A DNA stretch of 64,000 bases. Source: Capnocytophaga leadbetteri. GTDB lineage: Bacteria > Bacteroidota > Bacteroidia > Flavobacteriales > Flavobacteriaceae. The stretch is taken from positions 62,001 through 126,000 of the forward strand of contig NZ_QBKG01000006.1 in the NCBI RefSeq assembly GCF_003054025.1. Direction: 5' to 3'. Position 1 is the first letter of the stretch, and each line of letters starts with the position of its first letter. Below, one piece after another: positions 38,708 to 52,589 of the stretch. The position numbers and the translations under genes were made by a program. The notes beneath the pieces were generated by a model. The model had not been told where the DNA came from. It saw only the letters and a program-made list of their open reading frames with translations, and did no database searches.

Positions 38708-39601
38708 ATGGATAAATTACTACGTATCATACACCTATTGCGATTTATACGCGATTGTAATAGAAAAGGAATCTACCCTAACTACCAACAAATCCACAAA
38801 GAAATGGATAGTTATTTAGGTGAAAAAGGGTATAACCGACAATTGTTTGAGCGCGACAAAGAGACAATACGCGATGAATGGCACTATGATTTGAGATATG
38901 AGGATGAAACTTATGCGTTATACGAAGATGAAAATCAGCTGATAGTAGATGACCTATTGGCAGCTTACATCTTGTTTACCGTACAAAACCAAGACGGTAA
39001 ACTACCTGAATGTGTGATTGCCGAAAGTCGTCAGCATACGGGTACAAACCATATTGCTGACTGTATAGAGGCTATAGAAGCCCATAAGGAACTGCACATC
39101 ACTTACTACGACTACCGCGATGAGCAAACCAAAGCCTATACGCTACAACCTTACAAACTAAAACATAAAGACTATAAGTGGTATGTACTGGCAGTTGATA
39201 AACAAGACAGCAGTGTGCCTTTTAAAGCCTTTGCCTTAGAGCGCGTGCGTTCGTTAGAAATTGGAGCTACTTTCCGACCCAATAAGGAATTAGACTTCTA
39301 TAGCCCATATTACAATGCTTTTGGTATGTTCACCGATGCCAAAGCCGAAAAGGTAGTACTACAGTTTGACCACCGCGATGGCAACTACCTTAAAGCCTCG
39401 CCTATTCACCATTCGCAGCGGGTTATAGCTGAAACCGCAACGCATATTACCTTTGAACTCTATGTAAAGCCCACTCTTGACTTTATTATGGAATTGATGA
39501 AACGCAGTTGGTCGCTTACTATATTAGAACCCACCTCTTTGCGTGAAAGGTTTGTAGAGTATTGGCAAGAAGCTGTAAAGAGAAATTTGGAAGTGCATTA
39601 A
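38708..39601 (+). CDS. WYL-domain transcriptional regulator
   Basis: A 297-residue protein starting MDKLLRIIHLLRFI at ATG 38708; the longer frame from 38501 lies in repeats and is not convincing. The N-terminal region about 1-60 looks like a winged-helix DNA-binding part, followed by the WYL domain (about 135-300) with the motif YKLKHKDYKWYVLAVD and LERVRSLEI, and a WCX C-terminal part. WYL proteins sense ligands, often nucleic-acid related, and regulate defence or stress genes. It is divergent from susC and may regulate it or itself. Confidence 0.85.
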   Translation: MDKLLRIIHLLRFIRDCNRKGIYPNYQQIHKEMDSYLGEKGYNRQLFERDKETIRDEWHYDLRYEDETYALYEDENQLIVDDLLAAYILFTVQNQDGKLPECVIAESRQHTGTNHIADCIEAIEAHKELHITYYDYRDEQTKAYTLQPYKLKHKDYKWYVLAVDKQDSSVPFKAFALERVRSLEIGATFRPNKELDFYSPYYNAFGMFTDAKAEKVVLQFDHRDGNYLKASPIHHSQRVIAETATHITFELYVKPTLDFIMELMKRSWSLTILEPTSLRERFVEYWQEAVKRNLEVH

Positions 39602-39619: not shown

Positions 39620-39657
39620 AAAAAAGAGTGCCAGAGTAATTTCTGGCACTCTTTTTT
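39620..39657. terminator. Bidirectional intrinsic terminator
   Basis: A 16-bp stem, arms 39620-39635 and 39642-39657 (GAGTGCCAGA/TCTGGCACTC core), with A tract on one flank and T tract on the other. It separates the WYL gene from the convergent frameshifted gene. Confidence 0.9.
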
Positions 39658-39673
39658 GATTGTGGCATATTCA

Positions 39674-40989
39674 CTACTTAACCTTATTGCGTTTGTCGCT
39701 ATTATGCTTTTTGTGCATTAACTGCAACTGCATTCTATTTACAATATCTTCAAACTCTCTCTTAAGTTCACCTTTGTCAATACTATTAATAAAGTCACTG
39801 TTAGAAAGTTTAGTGCCTCTTGCTGCTAATTTTGTATAAGTTCTACTATGTAGTCCTTTATTTAAAGCTGCAGTAATTTTCTCTAACTCACAGTAATCAG
39901 CTTTCTTTAGCTCGCTAAGAATAGTATCCATAGGCTTTATATGATCAATAGCTATATCAGAAAGTTTTGTAACTTCAAAAGGTACATAAGTACTATTGTT
40001 TTTAAAATCTTCTGAAAAAACTACTTTATCATTGATGAGTAACTTGCCATCTTCAGAAATTTTAAGTTCTTTTAAATGCTTAAACTCATCTGAATTTTTG
40101 TCATAAAAGAAGCGAATACCATCAATTTGCTTATTGATAATATTATTAAAATATTCTTTATCGTTGGTTTTATAAAAATACTGTTGGATAAAACGAATAG
40201 GGAAGTAAAAATCACTCTTCTGGTTAAAACGATTCTGACTAATCAATCTAAAAAAGAAGTTTTTGCGAATATCTTCGTGACTGTAACTGTCTTTTATTTC
40301 AGTAGTAACCTCATCAATTTCTTCATCAACAAGGTCATTGACTATTTTATCAATAGTATCAGGTGCAGCTTCTGCAACATCAGCTATACTATCCTCTATA
40401 AAATAGAGATACTTTTTAAAGCCAGACCTATAATCCTTCAAGTTTTTTAATCCTTTAAAAGTTTCGGCTAAATAATCATCTCCTTGTTCTCTCAATCTAT
40501 TAAGAGCCTCAAAGTTTTGAGATTCATAGATTTCCTTAATAATAGGGAATAGTTTATATTCGAATAAACGGTCTACATTTTTTATGTAGTTTAGATAATT
40601 ACTAACACTTTTTTCCACTCCATTTTTAGGTAAGTAGGCTTTAAAAGCTTCTTCCATAAAAATGTTACCAAATGTTTCTTTCTCTTTAAACTCTTCAGCC
40701 AAAAAAGCAAAATAGAGTTTTATAGCATATTTATAGGTATGAGTACCTGTGTAAGGATTTCCATTGATAGGTATGTTATGTAATGGTTTTAACCCATTAT
40801 CCATATCCTTAGTAGTATAGGTAAAAAGCCTATAAATTTCTTGGGTATTCCCCTTAGTAAAATACTCGTACAAGTCGTACTTTTCATTTACCTTTTTGCA
40901 ATTGTAATGCGGCTGTCTATCGTTCTATCATCATAAGGATTTTCTTTTAGCCACTGTTTGAACTCTTGTTCTTTTTCTAGATTTCTCAT
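39674..40989 (-). pseudogene. Unknown gene broken by a single-base frameshift
   Basis: I do not recognise this protein. The downstream frame (from 40873) encodes 399 residues; a 33-codon open frame starts with ATG at 40989 and stops at 40888. Adding one A to the five-A run (T5 at 40893-40897 on the + strand) joins them into an exact 438-codon gene: the reading goes from ITIAKK directly to VNEKYDLYEYF. The protein has two similar helical segments (about 45-125 and 130-200, both ending in Y-x-K-Y-x-F-like motifs) and IAIDHIKPMDTIL (about 352-364 of the joined protein), which resembles part of an HNH motif, but a full nuclease is not evident. Promoter at 41020-41050. Confidence 0.75.
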
Positions 40990-41105: not shown

Positions 41106-42845
41106 CTAACTATTTAGTGCTGGCTGTTGGCGAATTTTGATAAACTTCTTATTAATTACTTCAAAATCAATACCTAACAGTAGTATTTCTATTTCGGATA
41201 GCAATGCTATAGGTGAAAGCTGACAAGTGAAAATTGAATTGTTAAAAAGCTTGTGTACTAACAGTGCTTTCTCTTCTAAATTAGAAGGTATTGGCTCAAC
41301 TTCTCGTAACTTCTTTACAATAAGGCTCAACTGTGGATAAGTAGCATTAGGTAAAGTGTCTAACAATGGGCATACCACTTTCTCAGGAGTAACAGCTATT
41401 GGGTTGAGTATATCATAGTCATCTTCTACAATAAAAGGCGCTAAACTATCTCCTATAGAGTGAGTGTGTAAGGGTTCACCATCAATAAGTATCTGTTTGC
41501 TTTCTTTAAGTATTTCAAAATGAGTTATACTACCTAACTTCTTAGGTGTTTCTCCTGCAAAATAGGTAATATTATCCATAACTCTGCCAAGCATTTCATT
41601 AAATAGTTTCGTTTGTAATAGCCGAGAAAAATACCCCCTAATTACATTTAGTGGAAGGACTATCGCTCCATCTGTACTACACAGCTGGGTTCTCATTACC
41701 AAGGGGGTATGCAAAGACTTTTTAAGGTCTTTTAAAGTCTTTCGTTCTAAAAGAATATTACTCCTATTTTCTAACATCTGTGCTATTTGTTTTTGTAGGG
41801 TTTCAGCTCTCTCTGAAAGCAACTCTTCTGGTGGTACTTTTATTTTTCCTTCTCTAAATTGTATGATCTTGTCAAAAACCTCTTCTTCAAAAAAGGGTAA
41901 CAGAAGTGAGGTACGCTCATAGCCTACAGCTCCTTCTTCGTGAACCCAAAGCAAATTATTAAACAGCAAACGATAATCAAGTAGTTGTTTTACGGTTATG
42001 CTTTTCCTCTCAAATACCTCTGAAATACCCACAAGGAAAATACCCTGTGCTTGGCTATCTTTCAAAGTATTCAAAAGTAGAAAATGTTTCTCAAAAAGTG
42101 TATCAGCCTCATTGATAAAGACTACTATATAAGGTGACGTAAGTGCCTTCTCAGTGCGTTTTTGGTTTTCATCTACTAAGGATTGTAAAATTTCTTCAGT
42201 ATCAGTAGCTGTGCTGAACGCATAAGGTGCTATTACTTGCAACATCGCAGGGGAACAATCGTCTTCTTTTCCTATCCACACTATTTTAAGCGTTTCAGGA
42301 GTATGTTTGTAGAGCAAGGATAGCAATACAAGCTGTTGTAATTTGCGCCGATAGGTAGGATCATCAGCTTGAATAGCCAAATGTGCTTCGGTTGCCAAAT
42401 CAATAAGATGAAGATCTTCATCATTCATTCCTAAGGCAATAGGTAAAGACATTGCAGAGTGTTTGAAGTGCTTAGAAGCAAATATTTCACTAAGACATAC
42501 AAAATGTGTAGTTTGGTTAGGAATAGCTATCCACACAAAACGAGAGGTTACCTCTTCAGCTACAAAATTAGAATGGAGCTGCACATAACCTTTAGGAAAA
42601 GCTTTTTGTACTTTTTCAAAATCCTCATCACTGAAATAGGGCTTCATTTTTATCGAAAAGACAGTTTCCTTTCTATCTATCTTCGGGTGTAGTGTACCTT
42701 TAAAAGGTATCTCAATAGCTTTGAGAGTCTCTTTGATATAACTCTCTTGTTGCGCTACTTCACGCTCTAAAAGCGCACGCATCGTTACTTTAGACTTACT
42801 GAGCAGCGCTATAGGCAACTGTAATGATAGTGTATCTTTATTCAT
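41106..42845 (-). CDS. Degenerate FtsK/SpoIIIE-like protein without ATPase motifs
   Basis: A 579-residue soluble protein. Residues about 30-300 follow the FtsK/SpoIIIE translocase order: an alpha-like part (about 30-125), then PIALGMNDEDLHLIDLATEAHLAI (134-158, matching the stretch that leads into the FtsK P-loop), VLLSLLYKHTPETLKIVWI (173-191) and SPYIVVFINEADTLF (237-251). The Walker A site expected at 158-167 reads QADDPTYRR, with no GxxGxGKS, and the Walker B Asp is Asn245. A 270-residue C-terminal extension is unknown. It should therefore not hydrolyse ATP; a structural or regulatory role is inferred. An inverted repeat lies at the upstream side. Confidence 0.65.
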   Translation of the reverse strand: MNKDTLSLQLPIALLSKSKVTMRALLEREVAQQESYIKETLKAIEIPFKGTLHPKIDRKETVFSIKMKPYFSDEDFEKVQKAFPKGYVQLHSNFVAEEVTSRFVWIAIPNQTTHFVCLSEIFASKHFKHSAMSLPIALGMNDEDLHLIDLATEAHLAIQADDPTYRRKLQQLVLLSLLYKHTPETLKIVWIGKEDDCSPAMLQVIAPYAFSTATDTEEILQSLVDENQKRTEKALTSPYIVVFINEADTLFEKHFLLLNTLKDSQAQGIFLVGISEVFERKSITVKQLLDYRLLFNNLLWVHEEGAVGYERTSLLLPFFEEEVFDKIIQFREGKIKVPPEELLSERAETLQKQIAQMLENRSNILLERKTLKDLKKSLHTPLVMRTQLCSTDGAIVLPLNVIRGYFSRLLQTKLFNEMLGRVMDNITYFAGETPKKLGSITHFEILKESKQILIDGEPLHTHSIGDSLAPFIVEDDYDILNPIAVTPEKVVCPLLDTLPNATYPQLSLIVKKLREVEPIPSNLEEKALLVHKLFNNSIFTCQLSPIALLSEIEILLLGIDFEVINKKFIKIRQQPALNS

Positions 42846-42890
42846 TTGTTAGAAACTTTTAGTTTGATGCGGCAAAGGTAAAGGGGGAGG

Positions 42891-42982: not shown

Positions 42983-44446
42983 CTATTTCTTGTATAATTC
43001 TAAAAATTCGCGGACGATTTCAAAGTCGTCAAAATGGTGTCTCACGCCTTTGATTTCTTGGTAAGTTTCGTGTCCCTTACCTGCGATGAGGATAATGTCT
43101 CCTTTTTGGGCGTTCTTACAAACGGATTGTATCGCCTGACGACGGTCGGTGATAGTTTGTACTTTATGGAAGTGCTGCGCTTGTACCCCTTGTTCCATCT
43201 CTGATAAGATAGCTTCAGGCTCTTCATTACGAGGATTATCAGATGTAAGAATTACATTATCGCTGAGGGTTGTGGCTATATCGGCCATTATAGGGCGCTT
43301 GCCTTTATCGCGATTTCCTCCACAGCCCACTACAGTAGTGAGGGTCTCGTTGTGGGTGCGTATATCGTTAATCGTTTTGAGTACGTTTTCGAGTGCATCG
43401 GGGGTATGGGCATAATCGACTATGGTAATGACGCCCGTAGCTGAAACGGCATACTGAAAACGCCCTGCGACAGGCTCTATCGCACTGATAAGAGTGAGCG
43501 CCTCAAGCTCATCTACCCCTAAAAGAGTAGCTGCCCCAAAGACTGCCAAAAGATTATAAGCATTGAACTCGCCTATGAGCTTCGTCCAAACCTCGTGCTG
43601 ATTGATACGCAATAGCAATCCGTCAAACCTACTCTCTATAATATGCGCTTTATAGTCGGCGTGTGTTTTGAGGGCGTATGTTTTCTTTTGAGCCTTGGTA
43701 TTCTGCAACATAAAAGCGCCATTCTTATCGTCTATATTCACCAAAGCAAAAGCGGTAGAAGGTAGCGCATCAAAGAAGCGTTTCTTTACATCGCGGTAGG
43801 CTGCAAAAGTTTTGTGATAGTCGAGGTGGTCGCGAGTGAGGTTAGTGAAAATACCCCCTGCAAAGTGTAATCCTTCAGTACGGTGCTGGTCGATACCGTG
43901 CGAACTCACCTCCATAAAGCAGTATTTCACCCCCTGTTGTACCATTAAATGCAAATAATGATGTAACTGAAGAGGGTCAGGGGTAGTATGGGTAGCCTCG
44001 AAACGCTGATCATCTACATACACTGCCACCGTAGAGAGCAAGCCTACCTTTTGTCCCGCCTTTCTAAATAATTGGTATAACAAGGTTGCAATGGTAGTCT
44101 TGCCATTAGTGCCTGTTACGCCTACTAGGGTAAGCTTTTCAGATGGATTTCCATAGAAATTAGCTGCCATAAGGGCTAAAGCACTATGGCTGTTGGGTAC
44201 TACTATATAGCTAACATCGGGAAAGAGCAGTTGCGGTAGTTGCTCGCATACTATTGCTGTAGCTCCACTGCGTGTAGCTTGGTCTATATATTCGTGTCCG
44301 TTGGATTGCGTACCTGCTATGGCAACAAACATACTTCCTTTTTCTACCTTGCGAGAGTCAAAACAAACGGAAGTAATAGGTTTATCTTCTACATAAAGAG
44401 AAGCTTTTATAGTGAGGTTGTTTAATAAAGATGTTAAATTAGTCAT
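42983..44446 (-). CDS. murE: UDP-MurNAc-L-Ala-D-Glu:meso-diaminopimelate ligase
   Basis: MurE adds meso-diaminopimelate to the peptidoglycan precursor in the cytoplasm. The 487-residue Mur ligase has GVTGTNGKTT (109-118) as its P-loop, a central HTTPDPLQLHHYLH and the C-terminal SDNPRNEEPE motif, in which DNPR selects meso-diaminopimelate over lysine. It follows ftsI by 18 bp and ends at the terminator 42920-42953. The expected next gene, mraY, is elsewhere (17823-19076). Confidence 0.95.
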   Translation of the reverse strand: MTNLTSLLNNLTIKASLYVEDKPITSVCFDSRKVEKGSMFVAIAGTQSNGHEYIDQATRSGATAIVCEQLPQLLFPDVSYIVVPNSHSALALMAANFYGNPSEKLTLVGVTGTNGKTTIATLLYQLFRKAGQKVGLLSTVAVYVDDQRFEATHTTPDPLQLHHYLHLMVQQGVKYCFMEVSSHGIDQHRTEGLHFAGGIFTNLTRDHLDYHKTFAAYRDVKKRFFDALPSTAFALVNIDDKNGAFMLQNTKAQKKTYALKTHADYKAHIIESRFDGLLLRINQHEVWTKLIGEFNAYNLLAVFGAATLLGVDELEALTLISAIEPVAGRFQYAVSATGVITIVDYAHTPDALENVLKTINDIRTHNETLTTVVGCGGNRDKGKRPIMADIATTLSDNVILTSDNPRNEEPEAILSEMEQGVQAQHFHKVQTITDRRQAIQSVCKNAQKGDIILIAGKGHETYQEIKGVRHHFDDFEIVREFLELYKK

Positions 44447-44464
44447 TCGTTATTAGTTGTTAGT

Positions 44465-46480
44465 TCAATTTGCTAATTCACCACACTGCAATACTACTAC
44501 AGTATTTCGTGTTATACGCGTGCCTTTCAGTACTGATTGCTCTACTACTTTGCCTTGCCCTAATACTCTGACGCGCAAGCCCATATTCTCTAATAAGGCT
44601 ATAGCATCCATAGCATTTACCCCTTTGAGGTCGGGCATAACCGTCTTATACTTAGCGGCTTTGGCGTAATAATCTTCGTAGTTATGAGTGGTGGTTTCTG
44701 ATACTCTATCCACATCTTCGACTGTGTCTATCAGCAAAGAGTTGGTGTATATCTTATGAGCGATACTCTTAAATACAGGGCCTGATACATCTGCCCCATA
44801 GATACCCAAACTGCGGTCTGGTTCGTGAATAACTACTATACAAGAGTATTTAGGATTTTCTACCGGAAAAAAGCCAGCAAAAGACGATATATAGCTCAGC
44901 TTGGTATCGGTTCGGGCGTAATCTTTACGAGCGGTACCGGTCTTGCCTGCCATTGAAAAATCGGGTGAATAGAGTCTGTGCGCACTACCATACGAACGCC
45001 TTACCACATCGGCTAACATTCCTTTAGCACGGTCGGCTGTTTGCTTGCTGCACACCTTTGCATTAATAATCTCTACATTGAATTTCTCAATGGTTTTATT
45101 CCACTCTTTTACTTCTTTTATCAATCGAGGTTTTACCATTACGCCCCCATTAGCAATGGCGTTGTAGAAGGTTAAACTCTGTAAAGGGGTAATTTTCACG
45201 GCATAGCCTATGGACATTGATTTCAGCGTTATCCCGCTCCATATCTTATCGCGTGGGGTAGGTATAAAAGGCTGTCCCTCGCCCGCTATAGGCAAATCTA
45301 ACTTCTGATTGAGGTTCATATCCAACAATTTATTAGTAAAATCGGATTCGCTTTTGGTATAAAGATGGTCTACCAACTCGGTCATCCCTACGTTAGATGA
45401 TACCGAAAAAGCCTTGTTGATACTAATACGCCCTGTGAACTTGTGTTGTGAGTCTTCAAAAGTCTTGTCGTAGTACTGCATCTTGCGGTCTTTGATGTCT
45501 ACTACATAGGTAGTATCGATATTACGAGTTTCCATAGCTGCCACTACGGTCATCAGTTTGAAGATAGAACCAGGCTCGTGTGCCTCGCCTATGGCAAAGT
45601 TATACCGCTCAGCATAAGTATTGTTTTTAGGGTTAAGCTCAAGGTTTGAAATAGCTTTTATCTCGCCTGTATTCACCTCCATTACTATTACACAACCGTG
45701 CTGTGCCTTGTATTTCTTTAGCTGGGTTAGTAGGGCGTGGTGGGCTATATCCTGAATGTTAATATTGATAGTAGAAACCACATCATAGCCGTCTTTGGGT
45801 TCTATGATGTTAAAACCGCTCGCCAATCGCCATTGGTTATTGGCTATTTTCTGCTCCATACGTCGCCCTTTAGTGCCGAGTAGGTAGCCCGAATAAGCCC
45901 CCTCGAGCCCCACACGAGTAGTAAAGCCCGTTTCATCGGTACGCGCATAGCCTATACTTCGGTGAGCAATCCCTCCTAAAGGATACTCGCGTTTAACCTT
46001 TTTCTCTACTATGAAGCCTCCTGAATTAGCTCCTTTTGAGAACATTGGGAACTTTCTAATACGCGTGTATTCGCTATAGCCTATATTGCTGACTACCAAC
46101 ATATAGCGATTATTATTAGCGCGTTCTTTAGTAAATATATTCTGATAGTAGCTGCTTGAGCGTCCAAACATTTTGGAAAGCGAATCGCTCAGCGGTTTTA
46201 TATTTTCTTTGAAGAGCTTTTTGCTTGGAGCTTTTGAGTCCCACCTGATGTCATAGCGCGTTACCGAGGTAGCCAAAAGGCTGCCATCGTCAGAGTACAA
46301 GTTGCCTTGTGTAGGGGTAATTTCTGCTTCGCGCAACGTTTTCTCGTCTACTTTAGCACGATATGTATCCCCTTCTATTTGTATGGTGACTAACTTAACG
46401 GCAATAACAATCAGCATTAGTATCATAGCCAACGCTATGAAATAGGTGCGATAGGTTATTTTTTTATCATTTTTTTCCAT
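44465..46480 (-). CDS. ftsI: Penicillin-binding protein, FtsI-type transpeptidase with PASTA domain
   Basis: The division-specific transpeptidase (class B PBP). One N-terminal membrane helix (about 12-30), a dimerisation domain (about 55-225) and a transpeptidase domain with the active Ser305 in SIFK (305-308), SSN (361-363) and KTGT (513-516). A C-terminal PASTA-like domain covers about 605-671 (MPDLKGVNAMDAIALLENMGL). Length 671 and position between ftsL and murE fit FtsI. It acts at the septum in the inner membrane. Confidence 0.93.
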   Translation of the reverse strand: MEKNDKKITYRTYFIALAMILMLIVIAVKLVTIQIEGDTYRAKVDEKTLREAEITPTQGNLYSDDGSLLATSVTRYDIRWDSKAPSKKLFKENIKPLSDSLSKMFGRSSSYYQNIFTKERANNNRYMLVVSNIGYSEYTRIRKFPMFSKGANSGGFIVEKKVKREYPLGGIAHRSIGYARTDETGFTTRVGLEGAYSGYLLGTKGRRMEQKIANNQWRLASGFNIIEPKDGYDVVSTININIQDIAHHALLTQLKKYKAQHGCVIVMEVNTGEIKAISNLELNPKNNTYAERYNFAIGEAHEPGSIFKLMTVVAAMETRNIDTTYVVDIKDRKMQYYDKTFEDSQHKFTGRISINKAFSVSSNVGMTELVDHLYTKSESDFTNKLLDMNLNQKLDLPIAGEGQPFIPTPRDKIWSGITLKSMSIGYAVKITPLQSLTFYNAIANGGVMVKPRLIKEVKEWNKTIEKFNVEIINAKVCSKQTADRAKGMLADVVRRSYGSAHRLYSPDFSMAGKTGTARKDYARTDTKLSYISSFAGFFPVENPKYSCIVVIHEPDRSLGIYGADVSGPVFKSIAHKIYTNSLLIDTVEDVDRVSETTTHNYEDYYAKAAKYKTVMPDLKGVNAMDAIALLENMGLRVRVLGQGKVVEQSVLKGTRITRNTVVVLQCGELAN

Positions 46481-46497
46481 CTGATGAGGGGGAATAT

Positions 46498-46827
46498 TTA
46501 TTCTTCTATAATTACTTTTATTTTTTGAGGAGGTTTCTCAGGCTGTTTTAGTCCTTTTGATTCTAACTGCTCTAATAATGAGGATTCTAAGCGAACCCGC
46601 TGCAAACGCGAACGCACATCGACAAACTCACTTTTTAGCTCGTTCACCTCTTCATTGAGTTTGGCTATCTGGTGCACTTTCTTGTCTACTATGTGCGAAC
46701 TAGCAATCACTATCAGAGCTAAGGCAAAAAGAAAACAGATAAAAAGCCAATTGCGATTGGCTTCTTTGCCTTCTACCAAGAATTTACCTCTGAGAATATT
46801 CTTTATTTCATTAGTAGCTGTTCCCAT
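46498..46827 (-). CDS. ftsL: FtsL-like division protein
   Basis: A 109-residue bitopic protein: a short cytoplasmic N-terminus, one transmembrane helix (about 27-46, FICFLFALALIVIASSHIV) and a periplasmic leucine-zipper-like coiled coil (about 50-95). The FtsL identity comes from topology and from the position between rsmH and ftsI. Such genes in Bacteroidota are sometimes labelled S-adenosyl-methyltransferase by mistake; no methyltransferase motif is present. It is 10 bp after rsmH on the same strand. Confidence 0.85.
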   Translation of the reverse strand: MGTATNEIKNILRGKFLVEGKEANRNWLFICFLFALALIVIASSHIVDKKVHQIAKLNEEVNELKSEFVDVRSRLQRVRLESSLLEQLESKGLKQPEKPPQKIKVIIEE

Positions 46828-46837
46828 TTTATCAAAA

Positions 46838-47752
46838 TTAATCGTTTATACGTTCAGCTATGCGAAGTTTAGCACTTCTCGCCCTGTTATTAGTGGCTAT
46901 CTCAGCTTCGTCAGGGAGGATAAGTCCACCTACTTTTTTGAAAGGTACTGATACATTGCCATACCAATCTTTTTCTGGAGCACCCTCCATTTGTCCATCG
47001 CGGATAAAGCGTTTTACACAACGGTCTTCTAACGAATGATAGCTGATAAGACTAATGCGCCCTCCTACCTTTACTACGGCAGGCAGCTGTAGCAAAAATG
47101 ATTCCAAAACCTCCATTTCGGCATTTACCTCTATGCGTATAGATTGGTAAATCTGAGCTAAAACCTTATTCTCCTTGAATTTTGGTAAAAAAGCGCGGAC
47201 AGCCTCTTGTAGGGTACTACCTAAACGAATGGGCGTATGCTGCCTAAAGGCAATAATAGCGCGAGCTATAGCGCGGGCATTCTTTAGTTCGCCATAAAGA
47301 GAGAAAATGCGAGTAAGAGCTGCCTCGTCATACTCATTGACCACCTGCTGAGCGGTAAGCTCTGACTGCTGATTCATACGCATATCTAATGCCCCCTCGA
47401 AGCGAGTTGAAAATCCACGTTCGGCCACATCAAACTGGTGTGAAGAGACTCCGAAATCGCCTAATACACCATCTACCTCAGAAACGCCATAGAAGCGCAA
47501 GTACTGCTTTAGGTACTTAAAATTTTGATGAATAAGGGTAAAACGCGGGTCGTCGATAGTATTATTTAGCGCATCGGCATCTTGGTCGAAAGCGTAGAGC
47601 CTACCGTTTTCGCCTAACCTATTGAGTATTTCGCGCGAGTGACCACCGCCACCAAAAGTGACATCGACATAGGTGCCATCAGGCTTAATAGCCAGACCGT
47701 CAATACTCTGCTTTAGCAATACGGGAATGTGATATGATATAGAATCGCTCAT
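46838..47752 (-). CDS. rsmH: 16S rRNA m4C1402 methyltransferase
   Basis: RsmH (MraW) methylates N4 of C1402 of 16S rRNA. The 304-residue protein has the SAM-binding motif VDVTFGGGGHSREIL, then DGVLGDFGVSSHQFDVAERGFSTR and the C-terminal ISYHSLEDRCVKRF, all typical. It is the first gene of the division cluster; mraZ, which is usually upstream, is replaced by a tRNA gene. Promoter at 47781-47810. Confidence 0.95.
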   Translation of the reverse strand: MSDSISYHIPVLLKQSIDGLAIKPDGTYVDVTFGGGGHSREILNRLGENGRLYAFDQDADALNNTIDDPRFTLIHQNFKYLKQYLRFYGVSEVDGVLGDFGVSSHQFDVAERGFSTRFEGALDMRMNQQSELTAQQVVNEYDEAALTRIFSLYGELKNARAIARAIIAFRQHTPIRLGSTLQEAVRAFLPKFKENKVLAQIYQSIRIEVNAEMEVLESFLLQLPAVVKVGGRISLISYHSLEDRCVKRFIRDGQMEGAPEKDWYGNVSVPFKKVGGLILPDEAEIATNNRARSAKLRIAERIND

Positions 47753-51881: not shown

Positions 51882-52589
51882 TTACAACTCAAAAATTTTC
51901 ATTTTATTTTGTATAATACTATTAATCACCTGATTTTCATTATGTTTATGCAATGTACTCCGAATGCTATCTAACATCTCTTTCTCTCTTGAAGGTGATA
52001 TTTTTCTGAGTATATAAGCAATTACTTTTATACAAGCCAATAAAGAATGGTTATCTCTTTCAAAAGAAACTTCTGGAATAGACAAAATGCCTTTTGGAGT
52101 ATTAAAATCAAACAAAACAGCAGAATGAGCACAAGTATTCGTCACTAATACAATAGTTTCCATAAAACTGATAAACTTTTTAGGCTTCTTTATATCGTAA
52201 AGATTAGAAATCTCTTCTTTTATATCATCTTCAATAAGATTTTTATAAATCTTCAATATCATTCCAAAAGAGAAAAACTCTAATGTCTTCCAAGCAGGAG
52301 CGTATATATCATTGGGATATTTAGCGTGATGCCTCTTTATAAGAGCATTATTCCTTATAAAATCTTGATTGTAGAACTTATTTATATTGTTTATGAAATT
52401 TTGCGAAATTACCGCTGAATCTGCAAACCAAGCAGGAAAAGACTTATACTTGTTTGAAACATAATAGATGAGCTTAGTCCTAAAATTTATCTCAATTCTA
52501 TTAATATATCTCATCAGAATATTTCGCAAATCTACATCTAAATAATACAATGCGACTACATCTGAAAATTTTGTTTCTAACCTAAAATT
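51882..52589 (-). pseudogene. Abi_2 family protein, C-terminal part of a split gene
   Basis: The frame is open from 52589 and includes FRLETKFSDVVALYYLDVDL followed by NILMRYINRIEINFRTKLIYY, the mid-part of Abi_2 (AbiD/AbiF-type) abortive-infection proteins. The first possible start is TTG at 52550, so a shortened 222-residue protein could be made. The N-terminal part lies at 53499-53663 on the same strand, and a 915-bp insert between them is bordered by TAAAATTA repeats. Joining the two gives a 288-residue protein in frame. Function of the family is phage abortive infection in some members. Confidence 0.7.

Follow-up and report, generated by a model that had tools for sequence, protein, structure and literature searches.

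A Capnocytophaga FtsK-like protein without Walker motifs, fused to a degenerate HNH-type domain in a possible defence-type module

In the HerA/FtsK capture defence systems (DndH and related), FtsK domains, cellular ones included, are drawn into conflict operons (PMC10853773; PMC12839542); the first of these accounts describes inactive domains as common and HerA/FtsK as an ATPase that possibly pumps DNA (PMC10853773). In Hachiman, a helicase restrains a nuclease (PMC12278908), and FtsK-type domains with lost activity are known from the type VII secretion proteins EssC/YueA (PMC3482391). The WYL regulator BrxR, which belongs to a phage-defence island, binds inverted repeats of 11 bp separated by a 5-bp spacer (PMC9122601). 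HerA/FtsK capture is the closest concept in print to the locus described here; in the open-licence literature, no description was found of this module, nor of an FtsK motor kept by selection without ATP motifs beside exchangeable nucleases.

The locus lies in a stretch of 64,000 nt (hereafter the window, to which all positions refer) from Capnocytophaga leadbetteri, which lives in the human mouth (contig NZ_QBKG01000006.1, positions 62,001-126,000 of the forward strand). P0001, a 579-aa protein, is encoded on the minus strand by a frame running from ATG to TAG (41106..42845, read from 42845 to 41106); the plus-strand reading of the same interval contains many stops. A murE-like gene (42983-44446, minus strand) adjoins it on one side, and on the other lies the gene for P0002 (39674..40873, minus strand), an HNH-type nuclease-like protein of 399 aa, so that all three are on the same strand. 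The names murE, mraY, ileS, ilvE and hsdM were assigned by eye from translations. A gene for a WYL+WCX transcriptional regulator (38708..39601, plus strand; frame open from 38501) is convergent to P0001 and P0002, and a hairpin with A and T tails, read by eye between the convergent P0002 and WYL genes (39620..39657, no strand), is likely a bidirectional terminator. Farther along the window, an ORF at 51882-52550 (minus strand) matched Pfam Abi_2 (E 1.2e-25, profile positions 37-184) and would encode a protein of abortive-infection type.

As in HerA/FtsK capture, an FtsK-type motor domain stands beside an HNH-type gene, in what would be a conflict operon; unlike in that case, P0001 lacks both Walker motifs and its motor is fused to an apparently dead HNH-type domain, and the partners named for those systems (Orc/Cdc6, D5 helicase, REase) were not noticed by eye among the module ORFs, ten of which were scanned. 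The motor resembles FtsK/SpoIIIE translocases in segment order, profile and fold, but P0001 is without the P-loop, the Walker B Asp, the N-terminal membrane part and the gamma domain. A WYL+WCX gene beside a defence-type locus is shared with BrxR and CapW (PMC9122601; PMC9122588), and the promoter palindrome found here, a candidate operator, has the 5-bp spacer reported for BrxR (PMC9122601). The regulator gene here is convergent, however, the palindrome lies at the partner gene and not at the regulator, and the arms of the candidate site measure 7 bp as against 11 bp for BrxR (PMC9122601). Two-gene ATPase-nuclease complexes (PMC11291478), Hachiman among them (PMC12278908), likewise pair a motor-type protein with a nuclease, but their motors are enzymes, whereas P0001 lacks the usual ATP-binding motifs. 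EssC/YueA also contain dead FtsK domains; EssC D3 is a weak fold match to the P0001 model (Foldseek rank 19), and T7SS EssC, not FtsK, is the sole NCBIfam hit of one P0001 relative (G012, 2.8e-5). Architecture and partners differ, and the other relatives match FtsK, which is the sole NCBIfam hit of the C. periodontitidis protein (8.1e-5).

Twenty Capnocytophaga genomes (species) were compared, that of the window (G000) included. The original prediction had proposed a search of this genus for the same architecture, and full or near-full relatives of P0001 were indeed found in four other species, giving 5/20 genomes: C. sputigena (91% identity; G018, locus L023), C. periodontitidis (43%; G010, locus L024), C. 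gingivalis (40%) and sp. oral taxon 863 (36%; locus L026), the latter two being the carriers labelled G007 and G012. The other 15 rows of the genus search consisted of two P0002-type neighbours and 13 frames of 797-833 residues, which matched within the first 224 residues of P0001 and were taken as FtsK itself. A wide distribution was rejected: a family search (E <= 1e-10) matched only the genome of origin among 299, and a pattern search of the species collection returned 66 stretches with four relatives of P0001, all from Capnocytophaga. A search across the order (E <= 1e-8) matched 206/296 genomes; among the matches listed only the protein's own was full length, and the others were short and mostly lay in frames of FtsK length. 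A phage or plasmid gene was also rejected, since neither P0001 nor P0002 had a match in the plasmid and phage collections at the E-values used, and a pattern search of IMG/VR gave no relative of either.

The frame of 579 codons, previously described as intact and kept by selection, was open in all five loci, although the N-terminus of the G012 relative is shortened. For the closest pair, P0001 and the C. sputigena copy, dN/dS was 0.14 (bootstrap 0.10-0.19), dS being saturated or nearly so in the remaining pairs; a simple pseudogene was rejected on this value, and P0001 is evidently maintained by selection. The pseudo-FtsK genes occupy two chromosomal places, beside murE or ileS, and directly follow murE in three genomes; other genes occupied the place after murE in 12 further regions examined. 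A gene that we take to resemble mraY was seen by eye within 6 kb after murE in nine of 12 other regions (L092-L103), and not within that distance in G009, G001, G013 or the window (42983-47752).

The order of FtsK motor segments claimed for P0001 was recovered in each comparison. Aligned by MAFFT with eight FtsKs of the genus, the segments lined up in order through both Walker positions. By hhalign, residues 20-340 of the five relatives matched the eight Capnocytophaga FtsKs with 95.8% probability (E 7.5e-9) over residues about 95-275, and a five-member pseudo-FtsK profile matched solved FtsK motors in the PDB (E 7e-8); Pfam FtsK_SpoIIIE was sub-threshold on P0001 itself (E 0.0014, 18.6 bits, cut-off 24). 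The proposed comparison of a predicted fold with the FtsK motor gave the same answer. All 15 Foldseek hits of the AF2 model at E <= 0.001, ranks 1-15, were FtsK motor chains (best E 4e-7). The mean pLDDT of this model was 62.6, and its global TM-scores to the matches were low (0.17-0.21), which is ascribed to uncertain domain packing in the model. For residues 20-112 as an FtsK alpha subdomain, the sequence signal was no higher than that of shuffles; the Foldseek alignments would take this subdomain in, as they span 338-387 columns against FtsK chains 390-408 residues long. The N-terminal membrane part of FtsK had no counterpart in P0001 in the alignment with the eight FtsKs, and the C-terminal half of P0001 did not match FtsK (hhalign 0.1%), and therefore no gamma domain is present.

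Both Walker motifs had been reported as lost, and both losses were confirmed and extended to all five relatives, all from Capnocytophaga. The FtsK P-loop GATGQGKS aligns with A160-R167 of P0001 (codons 160-167, 42345..42368, minus strand), which reads ADDPTYRR. The lysine position is occupied by R/Q/N/L/R in the five proteins and all three P-loop glycines are lost, while D161 and P163 of the former P-loop are invariant in 5/5. In the Walker B strand (codons 239-246, 42108..42131, minus strand), the Asp is replaced by Asn245; the five proteins have N, N, S, N and S at this position, each followed by Glu or Asp. An intact P-loop was seen, in aligned sequences, in seven of the 13 FtsK frames and in the FtsK of C. 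leadbetteri itself. With the Walker motifs gone in 5/5, an active translocase was ruled out, and, judged from sequence, P0001 is an FtsK-derived protein without motifs for ATP binding and hydrolysis.

The C-terminal extension of P0001 had been considered to be of unknown type, and this view did not stand. The half was matched by hhalign to the C-terminal part of P0002 (98.9%, E 1.4e-17) and was found by the P0002-family profile (E 1.3e-15); it was thus identified as a degenerate version of the HNH-type region at the C-terminus of P0002 (codons 369-567, 41145..41741, minus strand). The DH pair and the final Asn are kept in 5/5 P0002-type partner proteins, including that of G838, and are absent at the aligned positions in the C-terminal halves of 5/5 pseudo-FtsK proteins (in G007 and G012 these halves do contain a DH dipeptide, but elsewhere, at a position that does not align). 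Of the partners, 2/5 have the middle Asn of the HNH motif. Because these residues are lost together with the Walker residues, both enzyme-like halves of P0001 look catalytically dead, and P0002 would be an apparently working nuclease-like partner in which key catalytic residues are kept. The HNH assignment of P0002 rests on motif and context, since Pfam HNH hits on the P0002-type C-terminal parts were at chance level (E 0.15 in one of four members, E 1 in G838) and the AF2 model of P0002 was poor (pLDDT 50.7); in the PDB, the P0002-family profile had no match below E 0.05.

A P0002 relative from another family of the class (G838) is encoded between hsdS and hsdR in a Type I restriction operon (L138, 1480-13651) that has an Abi_2 gene nearby, and a plasmid search with this relative gave no useful matches. 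The N-terminal domain of P0002 recurs in G190 and G004, fused to NucS/YhcG-type PD-(D/E)XK nucleases. The 5' part of the P0002 gene in the window (40874..40989, minus strand) lies in a different frame, as read from a three-frame translation and a comparison by eye with an intact 442-aa relative from oral taxon 863 (L026). The frame changes within about 40884-40908, and the copy in the window therefore has either a real break near its N-terminus or an assembly error.

An HNH-type gene lies directly downstream of the pseudo-FtsK gene in 5/5 loci and belongs to one of two families without detectable mutual similarity: the P0002 family in four loci, and in C. sputigena an HNH protein of another kind, which matched PHROG endonuclease VII (E 2.2e-13) and, below threshold, Pfam HNH_4, and which has no detectable similarity to P0002. 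A search for this protein in relatives gave 2/198 matches, itself and a partial one. Because it is unlike the pseudo-HNH half of its neighbour, pairing of two HNH-type domains is not a general rule. The C. sputigena HNH gene, an extra gene for a 359-aa protein in the same locus and the C. periodontitidis HNH gene have in common a leader of about 100 bp (77-107 bp, 95-96% identity) that carries another promoter-like sequence, and also a hairpin terminator. The 359-aa protein, which may be a further HNH-type variant, had no useful relatives in plasmid and phage searches. In C. sputigena (L023, 4487-6081 and 6614-6884), the extra 359-aa gene stands in an apparent array with a broken fragment of a second pseudo-FtsK gene and with an orphan palindrome. 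The fragment (128 aa) keeps one loop glycine and has R at the lysine position, and it matched the pseudo-FtsK profile at 94.4% versus 74.6% for the FtsK profile.

A WYL regulator gene (in the window, Pfam WYL 5.5e-13 and WCX 6.6e-8) is convergent in 5/5 loci and broken in one; the WYL gene of C. periodontitidis (L024, 6706-7416) contains two TGA stops, and the pseudo-FtsK and nuclease frames of that locus are open. A close orthologue (>= 57% identity) was found in all five pseudo-FtsK genomes and in 0/15 others. For independent genomes such a split would have a probability of 6e-5, but these genomes are not independent, and the counts ignore phylogeny. More distant WYL paralogues, with identities of 32% or less, were found in 13/20 genomes. 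An operator-like palindrome with 7-bp arms and a 5-bp spacer lies 5' of P0001 (42891..42909, minus strand), before a Bacteroidetes-type -7 promoter element, TACCTTTG (42873..42880, minus strand), which we assigned by the consensus TAnnTTTG. In the window and in C. sputigena, the palindrome precedes this promoter element of the pseudo-FtsK gene; its arms are shorter in G012, one arm is degraded in G007, and it is missing before the C. periodontitidis pseudo-FtsK gene. Its 15-base core, TATCACNAAATGATA, gave six matches in 4/20 genomes, all inside these loci (chance expectation from base composition about 0.07 per genome); because these loci were the source of the pattern, its absence elsewhere is the only informative part. 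Two of the copies (one in C. sputigena, one in C. periodontitidis) follow the terminator of a nuclease gene and are not followed by a pseudo-FtsK frame. The pattern read backwards, as a control, gave one match in the 20 genomes, and with up to two mismatches the palindrome gave two matches in the window versus 0.93 expected. As the rest of the genome gave no match to the core, it does not stand in front of the WYL regulator.

Scans with Pfam, NCBIfam and PADLOC named no family for the whole architecture of P0001, in agreement with the original prediction, and no defence system for P0001 or P0002; PADLOC 2.0.0 at E up to 1 named no family for either. Among ten related proteins scanned with PADLOC, the regulator matched WYL and Cas3c models, and weak PtuB (0.006) and DrmC (0.0039) matches were obtained. 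Beyond what had been predicted, the analysis thus added the downstream HNH-type genes, the convergent WYL gene, the operator-like palindrome and an exchange of alleles between species.

The reading that we prefer, at a probability of roughly 45%, is that the locus is a small three-gene defence-type module under WYL control, in which interchangeable nucleases have P0001 as their non-catalytic partner. P0001 would join a captured, dead FtsK motor to a nuclease-like domain without catalytic residues, P0002 the nuclease-like partner with key residues kept, and the WYL regulator would probably act at the palindrome in front of P0001. Through its pseudo-HNH half, P0001 could pair, or may once have paired, with the nuclease; through its FtsK-like half it could bind DNA or enter hexamers that pump DNA, and it would in this way position and restrain nuclease cutting (targeting and/or restraint). 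We infer the defence role, the part of P0001 as a nuclease partner and the action of the regulator at the palindrome from the homology of both halves, the lost active-site residues, purifying selection and the constant HNH-type neighbour, and further from the co-occurrence of WYL gene and palindrome, the exchange of alleles and nucleases, the P0002 homologue in a restriction operon, the recurrence of the P0002 N-terminal domain in fusions with other nucleases, and the binding of inverted repeats with a 5-bp spacer by BrxR, itself a defence-island WYL regulator. Against this reading stand the lack of a named defence family in the scans, the EssC hit of G012, the chance-level Pfam HNH scores, the poor P0002 model, the middle Asn in only 2/5 partners and the non-aligned DH of G007 and G012. 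The broken P0002 of the window, the stops in the C. periodontitidis WYL gene, the absent or degenerate palindromes of C. periodontitidis and G007, and the lack of similarity between the C. sputigena nuclease and the pseudo-HNH half also argue against it.

Among the alternatives, an unlikely but serious one is that P0001 is an inhibitor, immunity- or antitoxin-like, which would neutralise the neighbouring nuclease by forming dead heterodimers, the locus being a nuclease/antidote array of toxin-immunity type. The homology of the pseudo-HNH half to P0002 would suit such a role, as would a promoter-like sequence of P0001 separate from that of the nuclease gene, and the C. sputigena array with its common leader and terminator, broken second pseudo-FtsK fragment and orphan palindrome. 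Poly-immunity loci are reported from a group including C. gingivalis (PMC3482391). Cognate pairs should travel together, however, and the trees conflict: the nuclease tree has the pairs G000/G012 and G007/G010, the pseudo-FtsK tree the pairs G000/G010 and G007/G012, and each rejects both alternatives (lnL differences 130 and 76; AU p 3e-8 or less). These tests used four loci, C. sputigena being left out because it has no P0002-type gene; in alignment A1 the G007 row begins a few codons before its ATG, and A3 contains the whole G007 ORF. The WYL genes, compared by identity, agree with the pseudo-FtsK tree. Between C. sputigena and C. periodontitidis, the flanks are 94.8% (murE side) and 96.4% (WYL side) identical in DNA, and despite these alike flanks (~95%) the pseudo-FtsK proteins are 42% identical. 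Between the window and C. sputigena, dS is 1.3 at murE versus 0.08 at pseudo-FtsK codons 341-545, and this stretch was therefore probably exchanged recently. The pseudo-HNH half of C. sputigena is thus almost unchanged beside a nuclease without detectable similarity. Exchange of the nuclease argues against a strictly cognate inhibitor, though inhibition as such could still occur, and for inhibition an FtsK motor would be superfluous.

That P0001 is a decaying relic of a once-catalytic defence locus would account for the broken members (the P0002 frame of the window, the C. periodontitidis WYL gene, the second C. sputigena pseudo-FtsK) and for the shortened G012 N-terminus, but the frames open in 5/5 loci, the low dN/dS of 0.14 (0.10-0.19) and the invariance of D161 and P163 make it improbable. 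We give equally little credence to P0001 as a passenger of a selfish, recombining cassette locus without a defence role. Cassette-like exchange and the common leader and terminator sequences speak for it. Against it, inspection by eye of the ORFs that separate the WYL gene from murE or ileS showed no integrase or transposase, and the phage and plasmid collections gave no relatives of P0001 or P0002 at the E-values used. A dominant-negative partner of the cell's own FtsK, joining its hexamers and regulating chromosome translocation or division, would fit the FtsK-like motor region and the place directly after murE in three genomes, but is the least credible, given its presence in only 5/20 Capnocytophaga species at two chromosomal sites, the lack of anything aligned with the N-terminal part of FtsK, the adjoining HNH-type and WYL genes in 5/5 loci and the other genes found after murE in 12 regions.

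The preferred reading, a defence-type module with P0001 as non-catalytic nuclease partner, would carry a wider suggestion, which is put forward tentatively and is in our estimate rather doubtful: a new class of defence modules in which a catalytically dead FtsK motor, joined to a dead nuclease domain, would be the shared non-catalytic scaffold for nucleases that can be swapped, with a WYL regulator and an operator of its own as the switch. The control of active enzymes by pseudo-enzymes is a theme met repeatedly. If the reading is true, the ability of a dead DNA pump to target or restrain a nuclease would become testable, and a predicted regulator-operator pair would be at hand.
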